Part shown: positions 1-14,362 of the stretch, one piece after another | Numbering within the stretch: the first letter of the stretch is position 1 | Layout of the letters: every line of letters begins with the position of its first letter | IMG/VR virus record: IMGVR_UViG_3300030116_001630 | Span: 1 to 20,804 of that record | Length of the DNA stretch: 20,804 nucleotides | Origin: a virus | Strand: one strand, 5' to 3' | Notes under the pieces: model-generated | The model's input: only the letters and a program-made list of their open reading frames with translations | Database searches by the model: none | What the model was told of the DNA's origin: nothing | Translations under genes and position numbers: made by a program

Positions 1-656
1 TTTGTTGTGCTACCTGTCGCGTTAACTATAAATTGATGGTTAGAGCCACCTGTATGATATGAATTATGGCGAGAGTATCCTTGACCTGTATCAACTAAAA
101 AGTCTGTGTTGAATCCTTGAACAGAACTTGCACCGAACGCAGAGCTGTTGCTATTAATCAATACTGGGCCGGAGGTAATATTGTCTGCTGTCACTCCGCT
201 CGCGAAAGTGGCGCTTTTGTCCGATAGATTGAGGGACAGGATGTCGTTTGAGGAAGTGGGTGAATTAGTTTTACCAAAGAACAGACCATTCGCGTTATTG
301 ACTATGTACGCATCTAAGTCTGTGCCTGCTGTGTCGACGAAATACAATCGCGGGAAATCACCGCTTATTGTCACTGTGCCTGTCAAACTAGGGCTTGCAA
401 GCGGGGCTTTAGTGGCAATGGAGTTTGTTATAGTAGTAGAAAAGTTAGCGTCGTCCCCGATTGCTGCGGCTAGTTCATTAAGGGTGTCCAACGCTCCAGG
501 GGCGGAGTCGATCGTAGCGTCAATGGCTGCTTTTACAAAGGCAGTAGTAGCGATCCTTGTGGTGTTATTACCTGCAGATTGCGTAGTCGTAGTCGGATTA
601 CCACCTAGATTGATGTCATCCGCTATTACGTTACTGGTTACCTTAGTATTTGCCAC
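1..656 (-). CDS. Second tail fibre protein, N-terminal part (runs off the left edge)
   Basis: This is a tail-fibre-type protein of which 218 full codons are visible. It starts with GTG at 656-654, whose first base is the last base of the upstream gene's TAG stop. A strong GGAGGAGG ribosome site (668-661) lies 4 bases before the GTG, inside the upstream gene. The N-terminus (about residues 1-95) closely matches the neighbouring 727-aa fibre: a conserved GNPTTTTQSAGNN block, an IATTAFV segment, an SAPGALDTLNELAAAIGDD helix, then PSLTGTVTISG, which looks like the start of a beta-rich shaft. Blocks of this kind are widespread in phage fibres and probably attach the fibre to the tail or start trimerisation. 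The receptor-binding end is outside the window, so its tip and any S74 chaperone domain cannot be judged. A fibre role is well supported by the shared N-terminus; the partner it docks to is unknown. Confidence 0.85.
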   Translation of the reverse strand, partial: MANTKVTSNVIADDINLGGNPTTTTQSAGNNTTRIATTAFVKAAIDATIDSAPGALDTLNELAAAIGDDANFSTTITNSIATKAPLASPSLTGTVTISGDFPRLYFVDTAGTDLDAYIVNNANGLFFGKTNSPTSSNDILSLNLSDKSATFASGVTADNITSGPVLINSNSSAFGASSVQGFNTDFLVDTGQGYSRHNSYHTGGSNHQFIVNATGSTT

Positions 657-2839
657 TATGCCTCCTCCAACGCTTCTATCCTAGTTTTAAGCGCATCGTT
701 TTCTTCTTTTAGTTCTTTTATTGCGCCTACTAATCTAGTTATCATTTCGTTGGCAGTATAAGAAACGGTCTGATACTTAGGATCACCTACTTTAACGTAG
801 CTAGCTCCATCATCTATATCTTGTTGTGTATACAACGCATCTTTTTCTACATCGACTAGATTAGGCATTTTTTCTTGTATTTCATGGGCTATAAACCCTA
901 CAAAATCTCGCGTTGGTTTACCGAAACCCGCTTTGTATTTATACAGCCTGGGTCGCAACGAAGTGATAACGTCTAACGAGCCTGTCAAATCACGTATTTG
1001 TTTTTTCTTTCTATAGTCTGAGTTGTTATGAAAACTTAAACCTGACGAATCTCCTTTTACTGTTCCTTCTGCAGTTGAATTTGTTCTGTATTGCAATAAT
1101 GCTACTGTGCCGCTGGCAGTTTTATTATTAACAAGAATAATTTCTGCACCAAAACTGTTATAGTTTGTATCAATAAAAAGACGACCAGTGCCGCCATAAA
1201 ATTGTAATCCATCAGTGCTATTATAACTGTGGTCACCTACTTTAAGATTATTATCATAAAGAGCCATACCATAAGTTCTAGAGCTAGAACTAGTAATAAC
1301 GTTTGTATACCATGTGTATGATCCATACTCATAGAATTCCATATAGTTTGTATTACCAGTTACAGTACCATTTGCACTTTGAGAGCCTCTCATGATAATT
1401 CTATGATTAGCATCAGCGCCTTCTAGTATCAAAGTACCTGCTGCCCTAACAGTTGCAGCTGCGCTATTGGTTGCAGACTGGCCAACTCTTAATACATTGT
1501 TAGCATCTATTTGTAGTCTTGCTGTTCCATTTAACTCCCATATATGTACTCCAGGAGTGTTGTACATGAGATTAGAGCCAGCGGCTCTTATCCAATTAGA
1601 TGTATTATTGGTGGGTGTTCCGGTGCTACCAAATACCATTCGTACATCTGATGCACCTCTTAATTCTGCATACCCATTAGAGCGATTTATTTTAAAAGTT
1701 TCTGAATAAGAAATTGTGTCGCCAGCAGAAGATCCAGTAGTAGCTTGTCTTAGTGTAAAGTCTCCAGAAGCTGCAAAACTCAATATAGCAGATCCAGCTC
1801 CTCCTTCTTGATACTTCCAGTTGCCCGAATTGTAGTACATATTGTACCCAACATATGCACCACTTGTACCAACGCCAATAAGATTGCCACCATTTACACT
1901 TAACATCTCTCCTAGACCGCTATGTGCGGGGGGAACAACCCCTATACCAACCCCGTCATTTTGTATTACCAAATCATCGCTCATTGTGGAACCACCCGAT
2001 ATGAGTATTCCTTGAGCGTCATTAGCTCTAATTCTTCCTATAGTGCTTCCATTACCTTTGAATAATATTGCTGGTACTTGACTTCCTGATGAAGTATCTA
2101 AATCTTCAATAACAAGCTCACAATCTGCATCGCCGTTATCAGAATTTCCCTCAATGTGTAATTTGGCATCTACATTCGCGGTGCCAATGCCAATCTTGCC
2201 ATTCGTGTCAATATGAAAGCGGTTTGCGTTAGATGCGTCTTTATCTATGATTGAAAAAGCACTTGCATTTGTTGACTGTAATCTAAAGTTCTTGCCGTTG
2301 CTGCAAACAAAATCGAGTTCAGCAGATGAAGCATTAACTAGTCTTAAATTATTTGCAGAAGTACTGGTATCTCCTATTGAAACTCTTCCGTTAGAAGAGA
2401 TGGCTAGATGAGTATTTTGACCTCCCCCTCCTAAAAGTAGTGATTGTCCAGAGTTTGAATAAACTCTTCCACCTGATCCCGTTCCCTGTACAGTTACTCC
2501 TCCAGCTCCTGTTTCAAGAACTGTAATTGTTGGATTAGCGGCTGTTTGTAGTGTTAGATTACCAGTCATAGTGCCACCAGAAAGGTTTAACTTAGTGGCT
2601 ATCGCGTTGTTAACAGTGGTTGTAAACGACGGGTCATCATTAAGAGCAGCTGCGATCTCATCAAGAGTATCTAATGTGCCTGGGGCAGAGTTTATAAGAT
2701 TATTTATTGCAGTCGTAACAAAAGCCGTGGTCGCAATACGTGTAGTATTGTTACCTGCGGACTGAGTTGTAGTGGTTGGGTTACCCGCTAGGGCTACGTC
2801 ATCTACTATTAACTCACTTTGTACTTTTGTTGTTGCCAT
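656..2839 (-). CDS. Tail fibre with C-terminal S74 intramolecular chaperone (727 aa)
   Basis: This is a receptor-binding fibre that probably trimerises and then matures by self-cleavage. Residues about 1-95 are the N-terminal block shared with the next fibre gene. The middle is a Gly/Ser/Asn-rich beta shaft with a GIGTANVDAKLHIEG motif near residues 215-230, of the sort common in S74 fibres. The C-terminus is a peptidase_S74/endosialidase chaperone domain: NSDYRKKKQIRDL, then LRPRLYKYK, then GFIAHEIQEKMPNLV, ending in a predicted coiled coil (KELKEENDALKTRIEALEEA). By family knowledge, cleavage occurs just before the catalytic Ser, here Ser607 (codon 1021-1019) followed by Asp608, which would release about 121 residues. 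The ATG overlaps the stop of the upstream 118-aa gene (TAATG), with a GGAG site at 2854-2851. The receptor is unknown. Confidence 0.92.
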   Translation of the reverse strand: MATTKVQSELIVDDVALAGNPTTTTQSAGNNTTRIATTAFVTTAINNLINSAPGTLDTLDEIAAALNDDPSFTTTVNNAIATKLNLSGGTMTGNLTLQTAANPTITVLETGAGGVTVQGTGSGGRVYSNSGQSLLLGGGGQNTHLAISSNGRVSIGDTSTSANNLRLVNASSAELDFVCSNGKNFRLQSTNASAFSIIDKDASNANRFHIDTNGKIGIGTANVDAKLHIEGNSDNGDADCELVIEDLDTSSGSQVPAILFKGNGSTIGRIRANDAQGILISGGSTMSDDLVIQNDGVGIGVVPPAHSGLGEMLSVNGGNLIGVGTSGAYVGYNMYYNSGNWKYQEGGAGSAILSFAASGDFTLRQATTGSSAGDTISYSETFKINRSNGYAELRGASDVRMVFGSTGTPTNNTSNWIRAAGSNLMYNTPGVHIWELNGTARLQIDANNVLRVGQSATNSAAATVRAAGTLILEGADANHRIIMRGSQSANGTVTGNTNYMEFYEYGSYTWYTNVITSSSSRTYGMALYDNNLKVGDHSYNSTDGLQFYGGTGRLFIDTNYNSFGAEIILVNNKTASGTVALLQYRTNSTAEGTVKGDSSGLSFHNNSDYRKKKQIRDLTGSLDVITSLRPRLYKYKAGFGKPTRDFVGFIAHEIQEKMPNLVDVEKDALYTQQDIDDGASYVKVGDPKYQTVSYTANEMITRLVGAIKELKEENDALKTRIEALEEA
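661..670 (-). promoter_or_regulatory. Strong ribosome site encoded in the 727-aa fibre's last codons
   Basis: TTGGAGGAGG, read in frame as Leu-Glu-Glu of ALEEA, lies 4 bases before the GTG start of the second fibre, which shares one base with the TAG stop. The strong site probably compensates for the GTG start. Confidence 0.8.
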
Positions 2840-6502: not shown

Positions 6503-8209
6503 CTAATTTAAAACGCTTTCATTTAACACCATCGAATTCAACAGACTTGCACCACCCGGCAAGAATTGAATACTGATCGACTCAATAATTGTAGCACTAT
6601 CTGATAGAATTTTGGTAAAACTATCCGTTAATACTTCCGTTACACTAAAGGTATCCGATTTAGTAGGCGCTATCAAACTGCTAAGTTGCTCTGATATAGA
6701 CGTAGTATCCTGTTGTAGGTCAGCAGCAGCTAGATTGTTAAGTTCTTGCATAAGTATCTGATCTGACAACACATTTTGCCCTGCAATAGCAAGGCTTTCG
6801 GTTACAGTTAGTGAATCTGCTGGGGCCAACGAAGTGCTTAAAACAGGGGAATCAGTAGCCCCAAAGCTGTCAGCCTGTGGTATGGACATGCCTAAAGCAG
6901 CTGCTTCTTGGAGTCCATAAGAATCTGCTAGTCCAGGCAAAATAAAGTCAAAAGTAGGTGTATCTGATACCGATACAATATTGCTTTTGTTTAATCCTGA
7001 CTCAGTAGCTAGGTTGTCTGATGCGCTTGCTAAGTCGTCTAACGCGTACGCATCAGTAAAAGTTCGTAAGTAAGTTACAGTTCTATCTAAAGATTCTGTT
7101 ATAGACATGGCTGCGATAGCGCCAGAGCCTGCAGTTATGCCGGCTTGGCCCCCCATGCCGGAGTGAATACTACAGTAGTAATGCAGCGTACTAGGCGTAG
7201 ATCCTGTTACTTGTATTTCAGTGTACGCACCTGACGTACCTGGGGTGCCGTTTGTAGTGACGTTGGTTGTATATTCACTACCGCTGTTATGAGTACCATT
7301 AGAAGTAGTAGAAAACCTAAACGGGTGACCAGAATTAGAAGAATCTGACTGATCAAAGGTATAAGTAATACCTGTTTCTAAAGCTAAAGTAGGGCTTACA
7401 ACCCCGTCTATGTAGTATTTATTACCAGAACCAAAACTATTAGAGCCAGATGCAACCGTCACCGTAAAGGTTTTGCTTGTTACAGTACCCTCTGCAAGTG
7501 CTTTGCCTACTAGCTTTGCGTCAGTTTCGGAGATACTAGTAGTATCTGTTTTTGCTAAAGAACTTAGTAGAGCTACCGCTTCAGATATACTAGGGGTATC
7601 TGTTTTGCCTAACTCAGTGTCTACGGATGCAACTGCATCAGACACGATTGGAGTATCTGTTTTGGCTAAGCTAGATAAAAATGCAGTAGTCTCAGAGATT
7701 GTAGTGCTGTCAGTTTTAGCTAGATCAGTCAACAACGCCGCTGCCTCTGACACAACAGGTGTATCCGCTAGGGGTTTGCTTACATCTAACGCGGGGGAAT
7801 CTATGAATGCGTATGAATCTGTAAACCCACGAACATAAGACACAACTCTACTGAATTGTTCTGTTACTGTTGCTGTATCAGAGGCTGCTTTGTCTAGAGC
7901 TTTAGCGGCTAACTCTTCAATGCTAGTAGAGTCAGCAAGTACTTTAGCAACTTCTTTTGAGGATATTACCGCCTGAACACCGAAACTAAGGGCGTTAGGA
8001 CTATCAAATTGGGCTGTGAAATAAAGGTTTTTAGTGTCAGGGTCTAAAAATACGTCTGCGAAAGACATAAGTGTGTACGCGGACACAGCTTCTGCATGTT
8101 GGAATGTAACGGTAGACTGGGCATGAACAAAGGTCGTAGTTGGTTCGGTAGCATCTGTTTGTACTACTAACGCTAACTTATTAAAGTCTACGGTTAACTT
8201 AAATGCCAT
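6503..8209 (-). CDS. Repeat-containing virion protein with embedded cupredoxin-like domain (568 aa)
   Basis: This is a probable tail or fibre-associated structural protein. After a roughly 90-residue N-terminal unit come degenerate Ser/Thr/Asp repeats, including four clear 18-19 residue copies (residues about 148-220, pattern TDTPSISEAVALLSSLAK). Residues about 240-365 form a separate beta domain whose potential ligands match a type-1 copper site: His295 in GHPFRF, then Cys346, His349 and Met352 in YYCSIHSGMGG. The last 200 residues return to related degenerate repeats (ADSFGATDSPVLS, ADSLTVTESLAIAG). Copper binding is inferred from the motif, not proven; the C-x2-H-x2-M spacing is tighter at Met than in plastocyanin (C-x2-H-x4-M). 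The ATG overlaps the upstream stop (TAATG) with no Shine-Dalgarno sequence nearby, so translation probably depends on reinitiation after the 124-aa gene. Confidence 0.85.
   Translation of the reverse strand: MAFKLTVDFNKLALVVQTDATEPTTTFVHAQSTVTFQHAEAVSAYTLMSFADVFLDPDTKNLYFTAQFDSPNALSFGVQAVISSKEVAKVLADSTSIEELAAKALDKAASDTATVTEQFSRVVSYVRGFTDSYAFIDSPALDVSKPLADTPVVSEAAALLTDLAKTDSTTISETTAFLSSLAKTDTPIVSDAVASVDTELGKTDTPSISEAVALLSSLAKTDTTSISETDAKLVGKALAEGTVTSKTFTVTVASGSNSFGSGNKYYIDGVVSPTLALETGITYTFDQSDSSNSGHPFRFSTTSNGTHNSGSEYTTNVTTNGTPGTSGAYTEIQVTGSTPSTLHYYCSIHSGMGGQAGITAGSGAIAAMSITESLDRTVTYLRTFTDAYALDDLASASDNLATESGLNKSNIVSVSDTPTFDFILPGLADSYGLQEAAALGMSIPQADSFGATDSPVLSTSLAPADSLTVTESLAIAGQNVLSDQILMQELNNLAAADLQQDTTSISEQLSSLIAPTKSDTFSVTEVLTDSFTKILSDSATIIESISIQFLPGGASLLNSMVLNESVLN
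7550..7768 (-). repeat. Four tandem 18-19-residue protein repeats in the 568-aa virion protein
   Basis: Four consecutive repeats encode ADTPVVSEAAALLTDLAK, TDSTTISETTAFLSSLAK, TDTPIVSDAVASVDTELGK and TDTPSISEAVALLSSLAK (18, 18, 19 and 18 residues, 73 in total). A degraded fifth unit (TDTTSISETDAKLVGKAL) follows, and weaker relatives occur toward the C-terminus of the same protein. The pattern (T/A)DT..(I/V)S(E/D)..A..... suggests a repetitive stalk or spacer. Synonymous codons differ between copies, so the array is not a recent DNA expansion. Confidence 0.8.
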
Positions 8210-8583
8210 TAGTCGAAATCGTCACGCACTACAAACTTCACTAAATCGTGTACAGTTTGTATGCCTCCATTAGACTTGGTGAACTCAACTTCCCCCTCGA
8301 ATGTACCGGATTTAGTCCAGGTACCACTTGGGAAGATAGTCTTACACTCTCCTGAAGAAGGAGTAGTAAGCGTCATGGTTATAGTTGAGAGCACTGTAGT
8401 TTCTCCGACTTCTCGGATTCTAAGTTTTACAGTACCACCGGTTACGTCTATGGGTGCCCACGTGTTCGAATCCTCTGGATCTAATGTCTGTCCAGAAGCA
8501 GCGGTGTTGCTGTCTTTTAGCGTAAAGTTAAGCTCAGGGAGCGTATCTCCTACTACTAATTTTATTGTTGATGCATAAGCCAT
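8209..8583 (-). CDS. BppU N-terminal-domain-like structural protein (124 aa)
   Basis: This is a small all-beta protein, probably part of the distal tail or baseplate-like adsorption apparatus. The sequence follows the pattern of the BppU_N family (formerly DUF2479): an opening strand (STIKLVVGDTLPELNFTLKD), a middle pair (IDVTGGTVKLRIREVG and TTVLSTITMTLT), and a closing part with WTKSGTFEGEVEFT followed by VKFVVRDDFD. In lactococcal phages this domain anchors receptor-binding complexes, and stand-alone versions occur in many tailed phages. Family assignment is from pattern recognition. The ATG has a GAGGT site about 8 bases upstream in a 25-base gap after the giant 1917-aa gene, marking the start of the adsorption module. 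The stop overlaps the start of the 568-aa gene. Confidence 0.78.
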   Translation of the reverse strand: MAYASTIKLVVGDTLPELNFTLKDSNTAASGQTLDPEDSNTWAPIDVTGGTVKLRIREVGETTVLSTITMTLTTPSSGECKTIFPSGTWTKSGTFEGEVEFTKSNGGIQTVHDLVKFVVRDDFD

Positions 8584-8608: not shown

Positions 8609-11600
8609 CTAAAAAGAAGCATAGAACGGTATATACTTCTTCGCTCGGAAGTCTCCTTTAAATATATCTTCTAGTCTCTCAGCAGTGGGTCCTAGAGGAG
8701 ACACCCAGAACTCATCACCATAGTTACCTGCTTCAATCATGGGTAATAACAAACCATACGGCCCTAAAACACCCGATCTATCAATTATTTCGTAGCTGTA
8801 CTCCCCATAATCCATTGTATTAGTACGTAGTTTCTTCTCATCAAACCCGGAGAATAAGTACTTCAACAGTTCTCTAAGCTCTAAACCAAGCATAGCAGCA
8901 GGCAGTAAAGTTATTGCACCTATAACTAAAGGTACAGAAGCAGCACTCAAGTCACCTGTTTCAGCGTACTTATTGTTAACTTCACGCATTGCACCTCCGA
9001 TGATATTCTTACCGTATGCGTAGAAGAATGACTTAAGCTGCCATATCAGAGCAGTATAGGGGTTAGAAGCCCAAACAGGTCTTTCTGCAGCATTAGGTCT
9101 AATAATAGACTCATCTACAAATCGACCTAACGCATCTTGTACTTTCTTACCTTGTGGAGTGTTGAAGTTACGTCTTGTGCCTTGCTTACCTGTCTTACGT
9201 TCTTTTGTAGCCCAAGTAAGTACGTCGTCTGCTTCTACATTCAACTCATTCAAATATCGTATAGATGTAGCATCTCCATTCTTTGCACGCCCTGCATGAT
9301 GTAACAAGAACTGCTCACCCATACCCAGTGCAAAAGTACGCGTAAACTTAGTGAACATTTCGGTACCTGTAACTTTAAAAAACCCATCAGTTAAAAACTT
9401 AGAGGTTTCTGTCATAAAGTTAAGTTCGTTAGCGTTAATGTACATAGTCGCCAGGGAGTCAAATGTAGTGACACCCACATCTCTAGCAAACTGTTGCATC
9501 TCAGCTTTGTTGTTAAAGTAGTGTTGAAGCTGGTTAAAACCTACACCAAGAGAGCTAAACTCTTTAGACCTTAGTATTGGCCCTGCTAAATCAGGTAACG
9601 ATGCTAGTACGGCAAAAGTAAGATAGGTTGTTACGTTTAAGAACAAGCCCCAGCTGTTAAGGTTTCTTTGCCACGGCTTCATGCCCAGACCTGTTTTACC
9701 CAGCATAGCTTTTACTGCATCTCTAGCACCTTGCTGGTCGGTAGGATCATCTATACGCTGCAATAAGGTTTCTACAGCTCGCCACCCGGTTACTTCGTCG
9801 CCTGCTTTGATACCCTCAAAACCTTTTATATTTTTAAGCTTTGCAAGATCAGCGTTACGTACAGTGGTTCGGGCTTTATTATTGTAGTCAGTACGCTTAA
9901 CCATGTCCTCTACGTACTTACGTATAGCCTGATCTGGGGATATTAAGACGCCTACATCGCCCTCTGGGTTAATGTTTCCTTGAGCATCTACCCCCCTACG
10001 TAAAGCTTCGTTAGGTATTGCAGTGAAAAGTTCTGCCCTTTCTACGCCCATTCCTATAGCTAAATCTGAACCAGACTCATCGACGTTAAGATCACTACTC
10101 TCTTCGCCTCTAATAATCTCTTCAATAACTTTGTTTATTAAGTCGTCAGATATTTGTGGGTTGTATGCTTTAAGTACCTTAGCTAACTCCCCCCGAGCAT
10201 TCGGGTTGTTTTCAATCGAAGATAGATCTAACTGTCTACTAAAGAAGTTTTTACGTTTTTTAATCTTAGGGTTATTAGGAGATACATAAGTTTCGTAGAA
10301 GTTGTCTAGCCATTTTCTGATCTCTTGTGCTTTAGGTGGCAAGTCTTCGGTGTTTATACTTTCTTGCTCTGCTTGCAACAGTAACTCATTGAATTGCTGT
10401 ATCTCTGCTTTTGAAGGTTCTCCTGCTTTTTGTGGGTCAATCAGGTCGTACAAACTATTTAAGTACTGGTTAATCACCAGAATTCTGTAATTAAGGTGTC
10501 CGGTCTTATCTGTTGACTGCGACCTAGAGTAAAAGATATTAGCTAGCTCTTCGCCCCCTACTTTGGTCAAGTAGTTGTGGGCAGGAGCTATTAACCACTT
10601 GACCCCCCAGTGCTTCATGTTTTGGGGTACGTTGTTATCTATACCTGCCAGTATCTTCTTAGCTTCTGTATTAATACGCCTGGCGTTCTTTTCACCAATA
10701 GTTTGTTTAGCGAAATTAGTAACAGAGTCCGTCATATCTCTGATACGTACTTTGGTAGTTGTTTGTAGCGGCTGTTCTTCAGGAGTTCTACCTTCTTTAT
10801 AGGACTGAACTACCTGCTGAGCATAGTTATTAAACTCGGGGTTAATCCCTTTGCCAAACCTTTCTTGGATAGTTTTATGTAAGTCATTGAAGAACTTACG
10901 TATCTTATTAGCTAGTCTCTTAAAGTATGCCTCAGACCCGTTGCCTGGCTTTTTGCCCTCATTGATAAGAAACAACGCCATCTGATCGGCATACCACTCC
11001 TCGAAACCATAATCACCTGTATAGGGTTCACCTATTCTGTCTTGAGCCTTTTCAAACTCTTTGTTAAGGACTTTCCACAGATTAGGGCTATTTACGAGTT
11101 TGTTAATTTCTTGCACAAACAACGAATGCCCTAGCTCATGTCCTACGGCTAACACGCCAGTGTAGAGGTCTTGTGGGGTTGCTCTACCTCTAGTAGTCGG
11201 TATGTTGAGAATAATTACATCAGTGTCACCAAAAGTAACAATCTTCCCACGCCTACCACTGTTCTTCATCTGCTGCTGTTTAGCACGGATAAAGTTGTTG
11301 GGGTTTATACGATTACCAGAGTCGTCTAGGTAGGTAGTGTCTTGATTAAAAGTAAAAGTAGCAGTGTCATCGGCTGTAATTATTTTTACTTTTCTATTGA
11401 AGCCAAAATTCTTTTCTACAATATTTTTTAGGTTACGTAGAAGATTATCTGTGCCATCACTAAACACATCAGCTGCGGCTTGTGAGTAGGATACTCCCTT
11501 GTTAATTGCAGTGGGGCCTCTAGCAGCTTGAGAATAGTTAGGGTCATTTAGCGACCTTCTACTATCATACCAACCCTCGCCCTCTTCTAGATCTAAACGG

Positions 11601-14362
11601 GTAGGAATTACTCGCTCTGTAGATGGGCCAGCAGTCTCTAAAGGCTGTTCCATCATAACCTGCTGTTCTCCACGGGGGTCAGCAGTTTCGGTATCTCGGT
11701 CTATAGCACCAGACCTAACAGCCTCAGTGTCAATACCTTCTTGAAACGCTATGTTTTCTACAGTATCTAAATACTCAGGTGACTGCTTAACAATTTCATC
11801 AGTTTGATTGTCGAGCCTGCTAAACCTGTCCTTAGCTTCACTTACTAAATCAGCCTCAGTAAAATTGCCTTGTTCTACTATTTTAGCTTCTATGTCCGCA
11901 GCAGATTCTTGTCTAGGAGCTGACCTAGGTAAATTATTTAGCTGACGTAAAGTTAGCTGTCTGCCTCCTTGTACAAATACAGGGGCTGTGGATAAGATTT
12001 GTTCGTTAACTGGCACACCTTGAAATAATAGCTGACTCCCCTCGTTGTTAAGGGCATCTAGCAAACCACCAAAGCCACTAGCTATCTGTTGCCCAAACGA
12101 CAAATCAGAGTCGGATTGCTCAGATAATGTTCTGCCTGCAACCATTAGATCTTGTATATTTACATCAGAAGTAGTGCCGTCTTGTTCTCGTAACTGCCAC
12201 CCATCGATCTTAAAACCCTTAAATGCGGTTTGCTTAGATTTAGTTTTTGCTTTCTGTAGTATGTCAGCAGCATCAAGCGGCCTGCCTTCTGCAGTTCCAG
12301 ACTTACCAATAGCATAAAACCCAGGCTGGACTGCATCAGATAAAAATACATCGCCTGGACCTTCTACCTCACGTAGGTACGCTTTTATAACTCCATCAGA
12401 AAGAGTATCAATTCTTCTAGAACCATCTGGCCCAGGAGTATTCCAGTATGTTTGTTCTTCGGTCGTTAACGTATCTAAGTAAGCTTGTTTGTTTTCTTCT
12501 GAAGCTTTACCTGTGGCTTTGTAAAGAACTACTTCGTTATCTTCGTTACGAACATAGTCAAACGCACCGCCCTCAGCTTCTTGTGTTTCTAACCCTTCTG
12601 TCTGCGTAACTTCAGCGTCATCAGCTTCTGCATCAAGCATTTCAGAGGTTTCATCCCCCATGTCCATGTTTCTCTCACGGACTGCTTGCTCGAGCATTTC
12701 TTTCTCGACTACATAACCAGCGTTCTTATCTAGTATCTTTCTATTGGCATTACGTACAGCTGCAGCCACACCTTCTTGGTTTGTACTTTGTTCGAATACA
12801 ATCTGGCCATCTTTATTACGTATGCGTACAACACGATCGTGTGTTTCATTCTTTACGGCAGTGTAGCCAAGAGCGTCACGTATCTGTTCTTCGGTAGGGC
12901 CACCCGTAGAAGCCCTATCAAATGCTTCGGCTTTTTCTCTATTAGTGGTATACAAAGTACCTGTGGGTGTAGATATAGCTATAATGTCGTCACGGCCTGC
13001 AAAATTAGGTACTAGGTCTGAGCCTTTAGGAACCCATACTGCATCTTTATCTATAGCGGGATCTAAAACACTAGCAGCCTGTGCATCTAACTGTTCTTGC
13101 GTTTCAGGTATAACATCTCTGCCATCCCCGTACTGTTCTTTCCTAGCATTCGCTCTATATGTTCTTTCAAACCCAGCTTCTATTTGATCTTTTGCGCCTT
13201 TGAATATTCCTGCAATCGCACTACCAGCGCCACCTCTAGCCCCACCAGCTACAGAACCAGCAAACGCAGCTTCACCGAGTCTAAGTTTTGCCATAGCCGC
13301 GGTATAGTCATCATCGATTGCAAACCTCTGTGCGATCTGCAGACCTTCTTGAGCTGTCTCTGTAGTGCCTTCTACTACAGAAGAACGACCAAAACCTTTT
13401 ACTATATCTTTAGCTAACTGCCCTACATACATGCCGTCACCAGAAGCTTTACGTAATGCAAGTAATTCAGCTTCTTTAAGTCTTGCGCCACTAGCGCGTT
13501 TTTCATACAAACGTAGGAGCTTTTGTTGTTCAACTGTAAGTTTTTGTCCTTTACGTACTTTATTTAACGTTTGCCCCATTGGAGTACGCGTGAGAGCTTG
13601 TTTGAATAGGGTTTTAGCAAAAAAGACTTCGCCCATTGTGTCCAGGGCGGCTTGAGGTATACCTAAGATTGCAGACATAGCTGCTTCATCTTTGGTTATT
13701 TCTATACCAGCTTCTTGGTACTCGTTAAGAGACTGAGCACTACCTACTACGTAACTCTGCCCAAAAGCCCCACTTACAGCACCATATTTAGGTAGTTTGG
13801 CGGCTGCTATAGTGCTTTTAAGTAAAGCATCTTCCGCTTTATCTAAAGTAGCTCCTGCAGTTTTCTTACGTAGCAGCTCTTCTGTGATTTCTTTACTAGC
13901 AGCAATGCTTGTCTTACGCAGTCCATACTTAGCTAAAAGACCCCCTACAAACCCAGCGCCACCACTAGAAATAGAAGTAAGCGCCATAGGAGTAAACCTA
14001 CCAACATTAACAACCGCCTGGTCCCAAGTTTTTTCTAAGCTAGGGTCATTTACGTAGTCTTCCCAGGTTTCTACTCGTTGTGCTTCTGCTCCCGCCTCAA
14101 TATCGCTCATTTGTGCTCTATTGAAGTTAGCTTGGGCTGCTTCTCTATTACCAGCCAAAACTTGTGCCATAGCACTAAATCTATCTACGTCACCCTCGAA
14201 CTGAGCTACGCCTTGTCTAAAACCAGAATCAAATGTTTCTTTTGTGCCTAGGGGAGCTGCTACCGGATCAATATCCGACTCAGTAGCTACTTCATTAAGT
14301 ACGTTGGCGGCGTCTTGTTTGTTTTTGTAGAAAAGACCGAGGATTGTGTTTTCATCAGCCAC
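8609..14362 (-). CDS. Giant internal virion (ejection) protein with zinc-metallopeptidase motif (1917 aa)
   Basis: This is the largest gene here and the probable functional counterpart of the T7 gp16-type ejection protein, packaged in the head and delivered into the host envelope with the DNA. The N-terminal 400 residues contain Gly/Ala-rich helical stretches (GGAGFVGGLLAKYG near 130-145; AAFAGSVAGGARGGAGSAIA near 365-385). An acidic, Gln-rich middle follows. A metallopeptidase signature comes next: HELGH at 1075-1079, in GHELGHSLFVQEI, and EEWYADQ with Glu1122 and Asp1126, fitting the gluzincin pattern HExxH...ExxxD. The C-terminal third is helical with hydrophobic segments near 1571-1593 and 1810-1828, and carries a RPNAAERPVWASNPYTALIW motif seen in other large phage proteins. 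I found no lytic-transglycosylase motif. The start is GTG, 2 bases after the upstream stop and preceded by GAGGGGGG. Ejection role: by context and length; peptidase activity: inferred. Confidence 0.88.
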   Translation of the reverse strand: MADENTILGLFYKNKQDAANVLNEVATESDIDPVAAPLGTKETFDSGFRQGVAQFEGDVDRFSAMAQVLAGNREAAQANFNRAQMSDIEAGAEAQRVETWEDYVNDPSLEKTWDQAVVNVGRFTPMALTSISSGGAGFVGGLLAKYGLRKTSIAASKEITEELLRKKTAGATLDKAEDALLKSTIAAAKLPKYGAVSGAFGQSYVVGSAQSLNEYQEAGIEITKDEAAMSAILGIPQAALDTMGEVFFAKTLFKQALTRTPMGQTLNKVRKGQKLTVEQQKLLRLYEKRASGARLKEAELLALRKASGDGMYVGQLAKDIVKGFGRSSVVEGTTETAQEGLQIAQRFAIDDDYTAAMAKLRLGEAAFAGSVAGGARGGAGSAIAGIFKGAKDQIEAGFERTYRANARKEQYGDGRDVIPETQEQLDAQAASVLDPAIDKDAVWVPKGSDLVPNFAGRDDIIAISTPTGTLYTTNREKAEAFDRASTGGPTEEQIRDALGYTAVKNETHDRVVRIRNKDGQIVFEQSTNQEGVAAAVRNANRKILDKNAGYVVEKEMLEQAVRERNMDMGDETSEMLDAEADDAEVTQTEGLETQEAEGGAFDYVRNEDNEVVLYKATGKASEENKQAYLDTLTTEEQTYWNTPGPDGSRRIDTLSDGVIKAYLREVEGPGDVFLSDAVQPGFYAIGKSGTAEGRPLDAADILQKAKTKSKQTAFKGFKIDGWQLREQDGTTSDVNIQDLMVAGRTLSEQSDSDLSFGQQIASGFGGLLDALNNEGSQLLFQGVPVNEQILSTAPVFVQGGRQLTLRQLNNLPRSAPRQESAADIEAKIVEQGNFTEADLVSEAKDRFSRLDNQTDEIVKQSPEYLDTVENIAFQEGIDTEAVRSGAIDRDTETADPRGEQQVMMEQPLETAGPSTERVIPTRLDLEEGEGWYDSRRSLNDPNYSQAARGPTAINKGVSYSQAAADVFSDGTDNLLRNLKNIVEKNFGFNRKVKIITADDTATFTFNQDTTYLDDSGNRINPNNFIRAKQQQMKNSGRRGKIVTFGDTDVIILNIPTTRGRATPQDLYTGVLAVGHELGHSLFVQEINKLVNSPNLWKVLNKEFEKAQDRIGEPYTGDYGFEEWYADQMALFLINEGKKPGNGSEAYFKRLANKIRKFFNDLHKTIQERFGKGINPEFNNYAQQVVQSYKEGRTPEEQPLQTTTKVRIRDMTDSVTNFAKQTIGEKNARRINTEAKKILAGIDNNVPQNMKHWGVKWLIAPAHNYLTKVGGEELANIFYSRSQSTDKTGHLNYRILVINQYLNSLYDLIDPQKAGEPSKAEIQQFNELLLQAEQESINTEDLPPKAQEIRKWLDNFYETYVSPNNPKIKKRKNFFSRQLDLSSIENNPNARGELAKVLKAYNPQISDDLINKVIEEIIRGEESSDLNVDESGSDLAIGMGVERAELFTAIPNEALRRGVDAQGNINPEGDVGVLISPDQAIRKYVEDMVKRTDYNNKARTTVRNADLAKLKNIKGFEGIKAGDEVTGWRAVETLLQRIDDPTDQQGARDAVKAMLGKTGLGMKPWQRNLNSWGLFLNVTTYLTFAVLASLPDLAGPILRSKEFSSLGVGFNQLQHYFNNKAEMQQFARDVGVTTFDSLATMYINANELNFMTETSKFLTDGFFKVTGTEMFTKFTRTFALGMGEQFLLHHAGRAKNGDATSIRYLNELNVEADDVLTWATKERKTGKQGTRRNFNTPQGKKVQDALGRFVDESIIRPNAAERPVWASNPYTALIWQLKSFFYAYGKNIIGGAMREVNNKYAETGDLSAASVPLVIGAITLLPAAMLGLELRELLKYLFSGFDEKKLRTNTMDYGEYSYEIIDRSGVLGPYGLLLPMIEAGNYGDEFWVSPLGPTAERLEDIFKGDFRAKKYIPFYASF

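Follow-up and report, generated by a model that had tools for sequence, protein, structure and literature searches.

The tail-fibre stalk protein of a podovirus-like, marine phage carries a domain that sequence profiles and structure models assign, with good support, to the cupredoxin superfamily, and in which a complete site of the type-1-copper kind is predicted. The predicted fold, the homology, the retention of the ligands, the modularity and the surface- and tail-protein context of the domain are all supported by computation. The reading that we favour, with a probability of roughly 0.6, is that of an exchangeable display or adhesion module with a type-1-like copper site, set in the fibre stalk. 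The DNA analysed (the window) comprises 20,804 nucleotides, positions 1 to 20,804 of the IMG/VR virus record IMGVR_UViG_3300030116_001630, and the following features are referred to below:

6503..8209, minus strand: open reading frame of the tail stalk/fibre protein, 568 aa
7130..7480, minus strand: cupredoxin-fold domain, residues 244–360 (AlphaFold2, Foldseek, profile-profile comparison, orthologues)
7109..7522, minus strand: optional insert, residues about 230–367, missing from orthologue L270 (orthologue alignment)
7518..7723, minus strand: stalk repeat of 18–19 residues, four copies visible in the DNA ahead of the module
7325..7327, minus strand: His295, first predicted metal ligand (GHPF)
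7172..7174, minus strand: Cys346, second predicted ligand, at the end of the penultimate strand
7163..7165, minus strand: His349, third predicted ligand
7154..7156, minus strand: Met352, predicted axial ligand, in a C-x2-H-x2-M loop as in amicyanin
8209..8583, minus strand: neighbouring gene, 124 aa, weak resemblance to BppU_N (receptor-binding baseplate adaptor), 99% identical in the related contig G001
6069..6494, minus strand: neighbouring gene, 141 aa, PHROG 5417 (function unknown), similar to tail fibre PHROG 4176

Stalk protein and fold of the domain

Comparison of the orthologues resolved the stalk protein into a conserved N-terminal region (residues 1–90), Ser/Thr/Asp repeats, the cupredoxin module, more repeats and a conserved C-terminal LNxxxLNxSxLN motif, in this order. 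The stalk on both sides of the domain is built of repeats of 18–19 residues (54–57 nt). In a full-length model made with five orthologues (mean pLDDT 37.5), confident folding was confined to residues about 244–360, which makes the beta-rich unit placed by an earlier note at residues about 240–365 the sole confidently folded part of the protein. The tail fibre families of PHROGs match the 568-aa protein over the cupredoxin domain only. A C-terminus of the LNxxxLNxxxLN type is common to the window protein and to L270, L271, L273, L275 and L278, with or without the module.

The structure prediction proposed in the earlier note as a check gave a confident model of the isolated domain (alignment A1; pLDDT 91.1, pTM 0.84) with nine strands, in keeping with the Greek-key beta-sandwich of some eight strands typical of the superfamily, the Cys being the last residue of strand 106–111 and the His and Met lying on the loop that precedes strand 119–124 (A1 numbering). 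The best 50 Foldseek matches in the PDB were all cupredoxins, among them the Hyphomicrobium nitrite reductase, rusticyanin, pseudoazurin, CueO and laccases, mostly with a probability of 0.95–1.00. TM-scores to these solved structures were moderate (mostly 0.43–0.51 among the best, rmsd 5–6 Å), which points to a distant branch of the cupredoxins.

A comparison independent of the AlphaFold2 model, in which a profile of 196 distinct copies was aligned by hhalign with 15 PF00127 domains from marine genomes, led to the same family. The match to these plastocyanin/azurin-type domains, in which the ligand loops are aligned with each other, reached a probability of 96.8% (E 2.6e-10). Much of this signal comes from a bridge subgroup that is mainly flavobacterial (98.6%, E 5.7e-16), the remaining classic PF00127 members giving 55.7% when taken alone. 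PKD and fn3 control domains from the same genomes gave 0.3%. In single-sequence searches, the window domain had no PF00127 match and thus did not reach the curated cut-off of that family; among its relatives, Copper-bind was the commonest sub-threshold Pfam match (8 of 32, best E 0.0037). HMMER searches of the PDB, with the single sequence and with the profile, gave nothing significant: the hits were mainly antibody chains, with plastocyanins and pseudoazurin only at E 0.6–1.2. The NCBIfam search returned nothing useful for the domain.

The closest cellular cupredoxins found were the flavobacterial PF00127 proteins L251, L252 and L256, together with the related L250 from a cyanobacterial assembly. 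They carry the motif HPFYIKT...YYYQCSxHNGMYG, the loop being nearly that of the phage domain, and are about 27% identical to it in the alignment shown; this subgroup exceeds the PF00127 cut-off, whereas the phage domain does not. The PF00127 cupredoxins (plastocyanin, azurin, pseudoazurin) are soluble redox carriers, in contrast to the phage domain, which is set in structural and surface proteins.

It is highly improbable that the domain is an ordinary Ig-like or carbohydrate-binding beta-sandwich in which the H, C, H and M residues are conserved for packing and no metal is held. The weak Pfam match to CBM_4_9 (E 0.0076–0.05) and the predominance of antibodies, at non-significant E-values, in the PDB sequence search can be cited in its favour. 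However, the best 50 structural matches are cupredoxins and not Ig domains, the PKD and fn3 controls stayed at 0.3% against 96.8% for PF00127, and the ligand columns stand out in conservation (see below). The CBM_4_9 identity itself was dropped as weak and inconsistent.

Conservation of the predicted metal ligands

His295, followed by Cys346, His349 and Met352 on the loop before the last strand, is the order of ligands that characterizes a cupredoxin. All four residues, named as potential type-1 ligands before any structure had been modelled, lie at the positions then given. Cys346 is the sole cysteine of the 568-aa protein, and its histidines are found at positions 29, 38, 295, 307, 343 and 349. 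The Met spacing had been thought unlike that of plastocyanin and the site therefore perhaps modified; this concern was misplaced, C-x2-H-x2-M being the spacing of amicyanin.

The amicyanin of Paracoccus denitrificans, whose ligands are His53, Cys92, His95 and Met98 (PMC12723479), has the ligand order, the C-x2-H-x2-M spacing and the cupredoxin fold in common with the phage domain, the distance from the first His to the Cys being 51 residues in the phage domain vs. 39 in amicyanin. Whereas amicyanin is a free protein that carries electrons for methylamine dehydrogenase, the phage domain is part of a tail fibre and has no such partner: the window and its nearest relative G001, a viral contig of 60 kb with the window's gene order, hold phage structural and replication genes, and no amicyanin-type link to methylamine dehydrogenase was found in either.

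Conservation of the ligands was assessed in two collections gathered with search patterns free of ligand residues, in order to escape circularity. The viral collection was obtained by scanning with the N-terminal 50 residues of the domain (41 distinct copies), the genome-assembly collection with the patterns G[TV][PA]G[SNQ][SA]GA[YT][TV] and [GS]xTY[TRK]FD[QV]S[DN] (67 distinct copies), and both were aligned to one profile built from alignment A1. Since A1 had been filtered on the ligand loop, its own invariant columns were excluded as evidence. The H, C and H were kept in all 41 viral copies and the Met in all 40 with a residue at that position. Among the 67 genome-scan copies, the first His was present in 65, the Cys and the second His in 64 each and the Met in 63. 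Overall, each ligand was present in about 95% or more of the 108 distinct copies, the exceptions being three copies in which no usable loop is present and two with Gln instead of Met. Outside the stretches used as search patterns, the four ligand columns were the most conserved. The residues are thus near-invariant in homologues and not frequently substituted, one of the two outcomes on which the earlier note had made its proposal depend.

Gln, the natural axial ligand of stellacyanin, occupies the axial Met position in L199 and in one copy of L217, and these copies represent natural variants of the predicted site. Several ligands were lost together in one copy each of the multi-copy proteins L210 and L217, and another copy in the same protein retains the complete site in both cases. 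L232 is a partial match from which the loop is missing, and one viral subgroup has the spacing C-x2-H-x3-M.

Ligand conservation by itself fits a purely structural metal equally well. In that case, Cu or Zn held by the H-C-H-M set would stiffen the small beta-sandwich as a disulphide otherwise might, and any recognition would be left to other loops. This explanation is possible but rather unlikely. The sole cysteine of the protein rules out an intrachain disulphide, and the fibre tip of T4 gp37, with structural iron bound via HxH motifs as reported in PMC11705849, offers a precedent. A simpler four-residue zinc site would serve the same end, however, whereas the residues retained here are a type-1 set including the weak axial Met, for which the clear replacement is Gln. 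Moreover, copies with damaged sites appear to retain the outline of the domain, which argues that the metal is not indispensable for folding. Copper is the probable metal.

Modularity and distribution of the domain

Orthologues of the whole stalk protein were found by using its flanks alone as the query. The domain is absent from L270, L271 and L272, present as one copy in L269 and L275–L278 and as two tandem copies in L273 and L274, and its position in the stalk protein is identical across the carriers. With a copy number that varies from zero to two at one fixed site, the domain is an optional module. The empty site is seen in L270, in which residues 1–228 correspond to residues 1–229 of the window protein and residues 241–441 to residues 368–568; the unit described earlier as "inserted" in the stalk is therefore literally so, as L270 aligns on both sides without the domain. 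Among the roles suggested for it previously, stabilization of the fibre is the weakest, because the stalk can do without the module.

Between the window and G001, the domain is 97.6% identical at the protein level (dS 0.28, dN/dS about 0.06), whereas the flanks are 60–76% identical with a dS of 0.7–2.1. The lower dS of the domain suggests that the module moved between the two phages more recently than the flanks diverged.

A viral scan returned at least 583 relatives of the domain, which places its occurrence far from chance. Matches were found in 58 GenBank phage records, comprising cyanophages, pelagiphages, Methylophilales phages and other marine viruses, in which the carrier proteins are labelled as tail fibre, virion structural protein or hypothetical. 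Cyanophage S-TIM5, pelagiphage Baldr and Melnitz phages are cultured carriers of the domain. None of the GenBank phage matches listed covered 80% of the 568-aa protein, and among them the cupredoxin domain was the sole part in common with it. The matches in BFVD were tail-fibre connectors and proximal tail fibres of cyanophages. Complete viral proteins contain one to three copies, and in 98 such proteins the domain lies at the C-terminal end in 44, at the N-terminal end in 23 and internally in 31. In cyanophage S-TIM5 (L162:5140-6597), the domain occurs in a structural protein that is encoded two genes after the portal gene and is not named a tail fibre; the virion may thus display the module elsewhere as well.

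The genome assemblies contain the domain in surface proteins of marine bacteria, with the reservation that short contigs among them may be viral carry-over. On the chromosome of Ca. Arcticimaribacter forsetii, the domain is part of a giant Flavobacteria protein (L182) that also has DUF7507, DUF11 and C-type lectin domains; other carriers are an RTX-type protein of SAR116 (L194) and a probable lipoprotein (L224). All of the carrier settings are outward-facing. The plasmids searched for the domain gave no match.

No description of a cupredoxin in phage tails was found in the open-access journal papers searched. Within that scope, what appears to be new here is the complete set of metal-site residues in phage fibres and bacterial surface proteins, the cupredoxin superfamily itself being known. 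A lead on encapsulins and cupredoxins proved to have no bearing on the domain, since it concerns nitrite reductases carried as encapsulin cargo. The distribution suggests that, throughout the ocean, a cupredoxin lineage with a full predicted metal site has become an interchangeable unit of phage fibres and of surface proteins in bacteria. The assignment would also give a name to a domain that hundreds of viral protein entries now list only as "tail fibre" or "hypothetical".

Possible role on the virion and genome setting

Known cupredoxins carry electrons, handle copper or form part of copper oxidases, and they fold without metal. The metal lies at one pole of the fold and the ends of the first and last strands at the other, a geometry well matched to a stalk insertion in which the site faces outwards. 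In the reading as an adhesion module, synthesis and assembly of the fibre would take place in the cytoplasm, which is reducing and poor in copper, and the domain would fold there without its metal. Since fibres assemble in the cytoplasm, the metal would be taken up after lysis, when the site would acquire copper. The displayed module might then act in adhesion or recognition and so strengthen the contact with the host surface; the metal would hold the ligand loop in the conformation needed for binding and might itself join the contact. If copper is bound, metal chemistry would be a general factor in the attachment of marine phages, and the virions would join the copper ligands of seawater.

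Tail-fibre metal at the host-contact end is known from T4 gp37 and from the HxH motifs of marine phages, on which the "Ferrojan horse" idea is based (PMC11705849). The latter concerns octahedral HxH iron sites of the fibre, whereas the window protein has a separate cupredoxin domain with a predicted Cys-His-His-Met site, and no HxH motif is present among the histidines of the 568 aa. A copper counterpart of that idea would be that marine phages with copper-loaded fibre cupredoxins attach via outer-membrane copper-uptake receptors or copper proteins of the host surface, their virions contributing to the organic matter that binds copper in seawater; we regard this extension as unlikely. A secreted cupredoxin, the azurin of Pseudomonas aeruginosa, docks on the outer-membrane copper receptor OprC (PMC6907878), but a second group, working with native OprC, failed to reproduce this docking (PMC8610252), and azurin, unlike the phage domain, is not part of a virion.

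Copper chemistry proper, in which the module would scavenge or buffer copper for the virion or carry out redox reactions at the surface, is consistent with the type-1-like ligand set and is nonetheless very unlikely. Neither a partner redox domain nor a copper gene was found in the window (open reading frames, Pfam, PHROGs), one site per chain would make a poor buffer, and the module is optional among the orthologues.

The late genes of the window encode tail-fibre proteins, virion-type proteins of 1917 and 897 aa and connector-type proteins (PHROGs 399 and 437). G001 additionally encodes a P22-type portal, a terminase, a major head protein and a family-A DNA polymerase. Two adjoining tail-fibre genes (3–656 and 656–2839, minus strand) have a common N-terminal part and are paralogues, the second of them (656–2839) ending in an intramolecular S74 chaperone domain. 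In the 1917-aa virion protein (8609–14362, minus strand), a zincin-like HELGHS...EEWYAD motif was recognized by eye, and the Pfam search of this protein gave no match; its counterpart in G001 (2389 aa) begins instead with a segment, EGFSNKVYSDASGYSVGHGH, that looks lysozyme-like by eye. G001 also has a run of bacterial-type genes, either phage cargo or a piece of host DNA, between its replication and tail genes (L233:16109-20940, minus strand), comprising a CHASE2-guanylate cyclase, FecR and a signal-peptide protein with repeats, the latter curlin-like by eye and matched in Pfam only weakly, by DUF3060.
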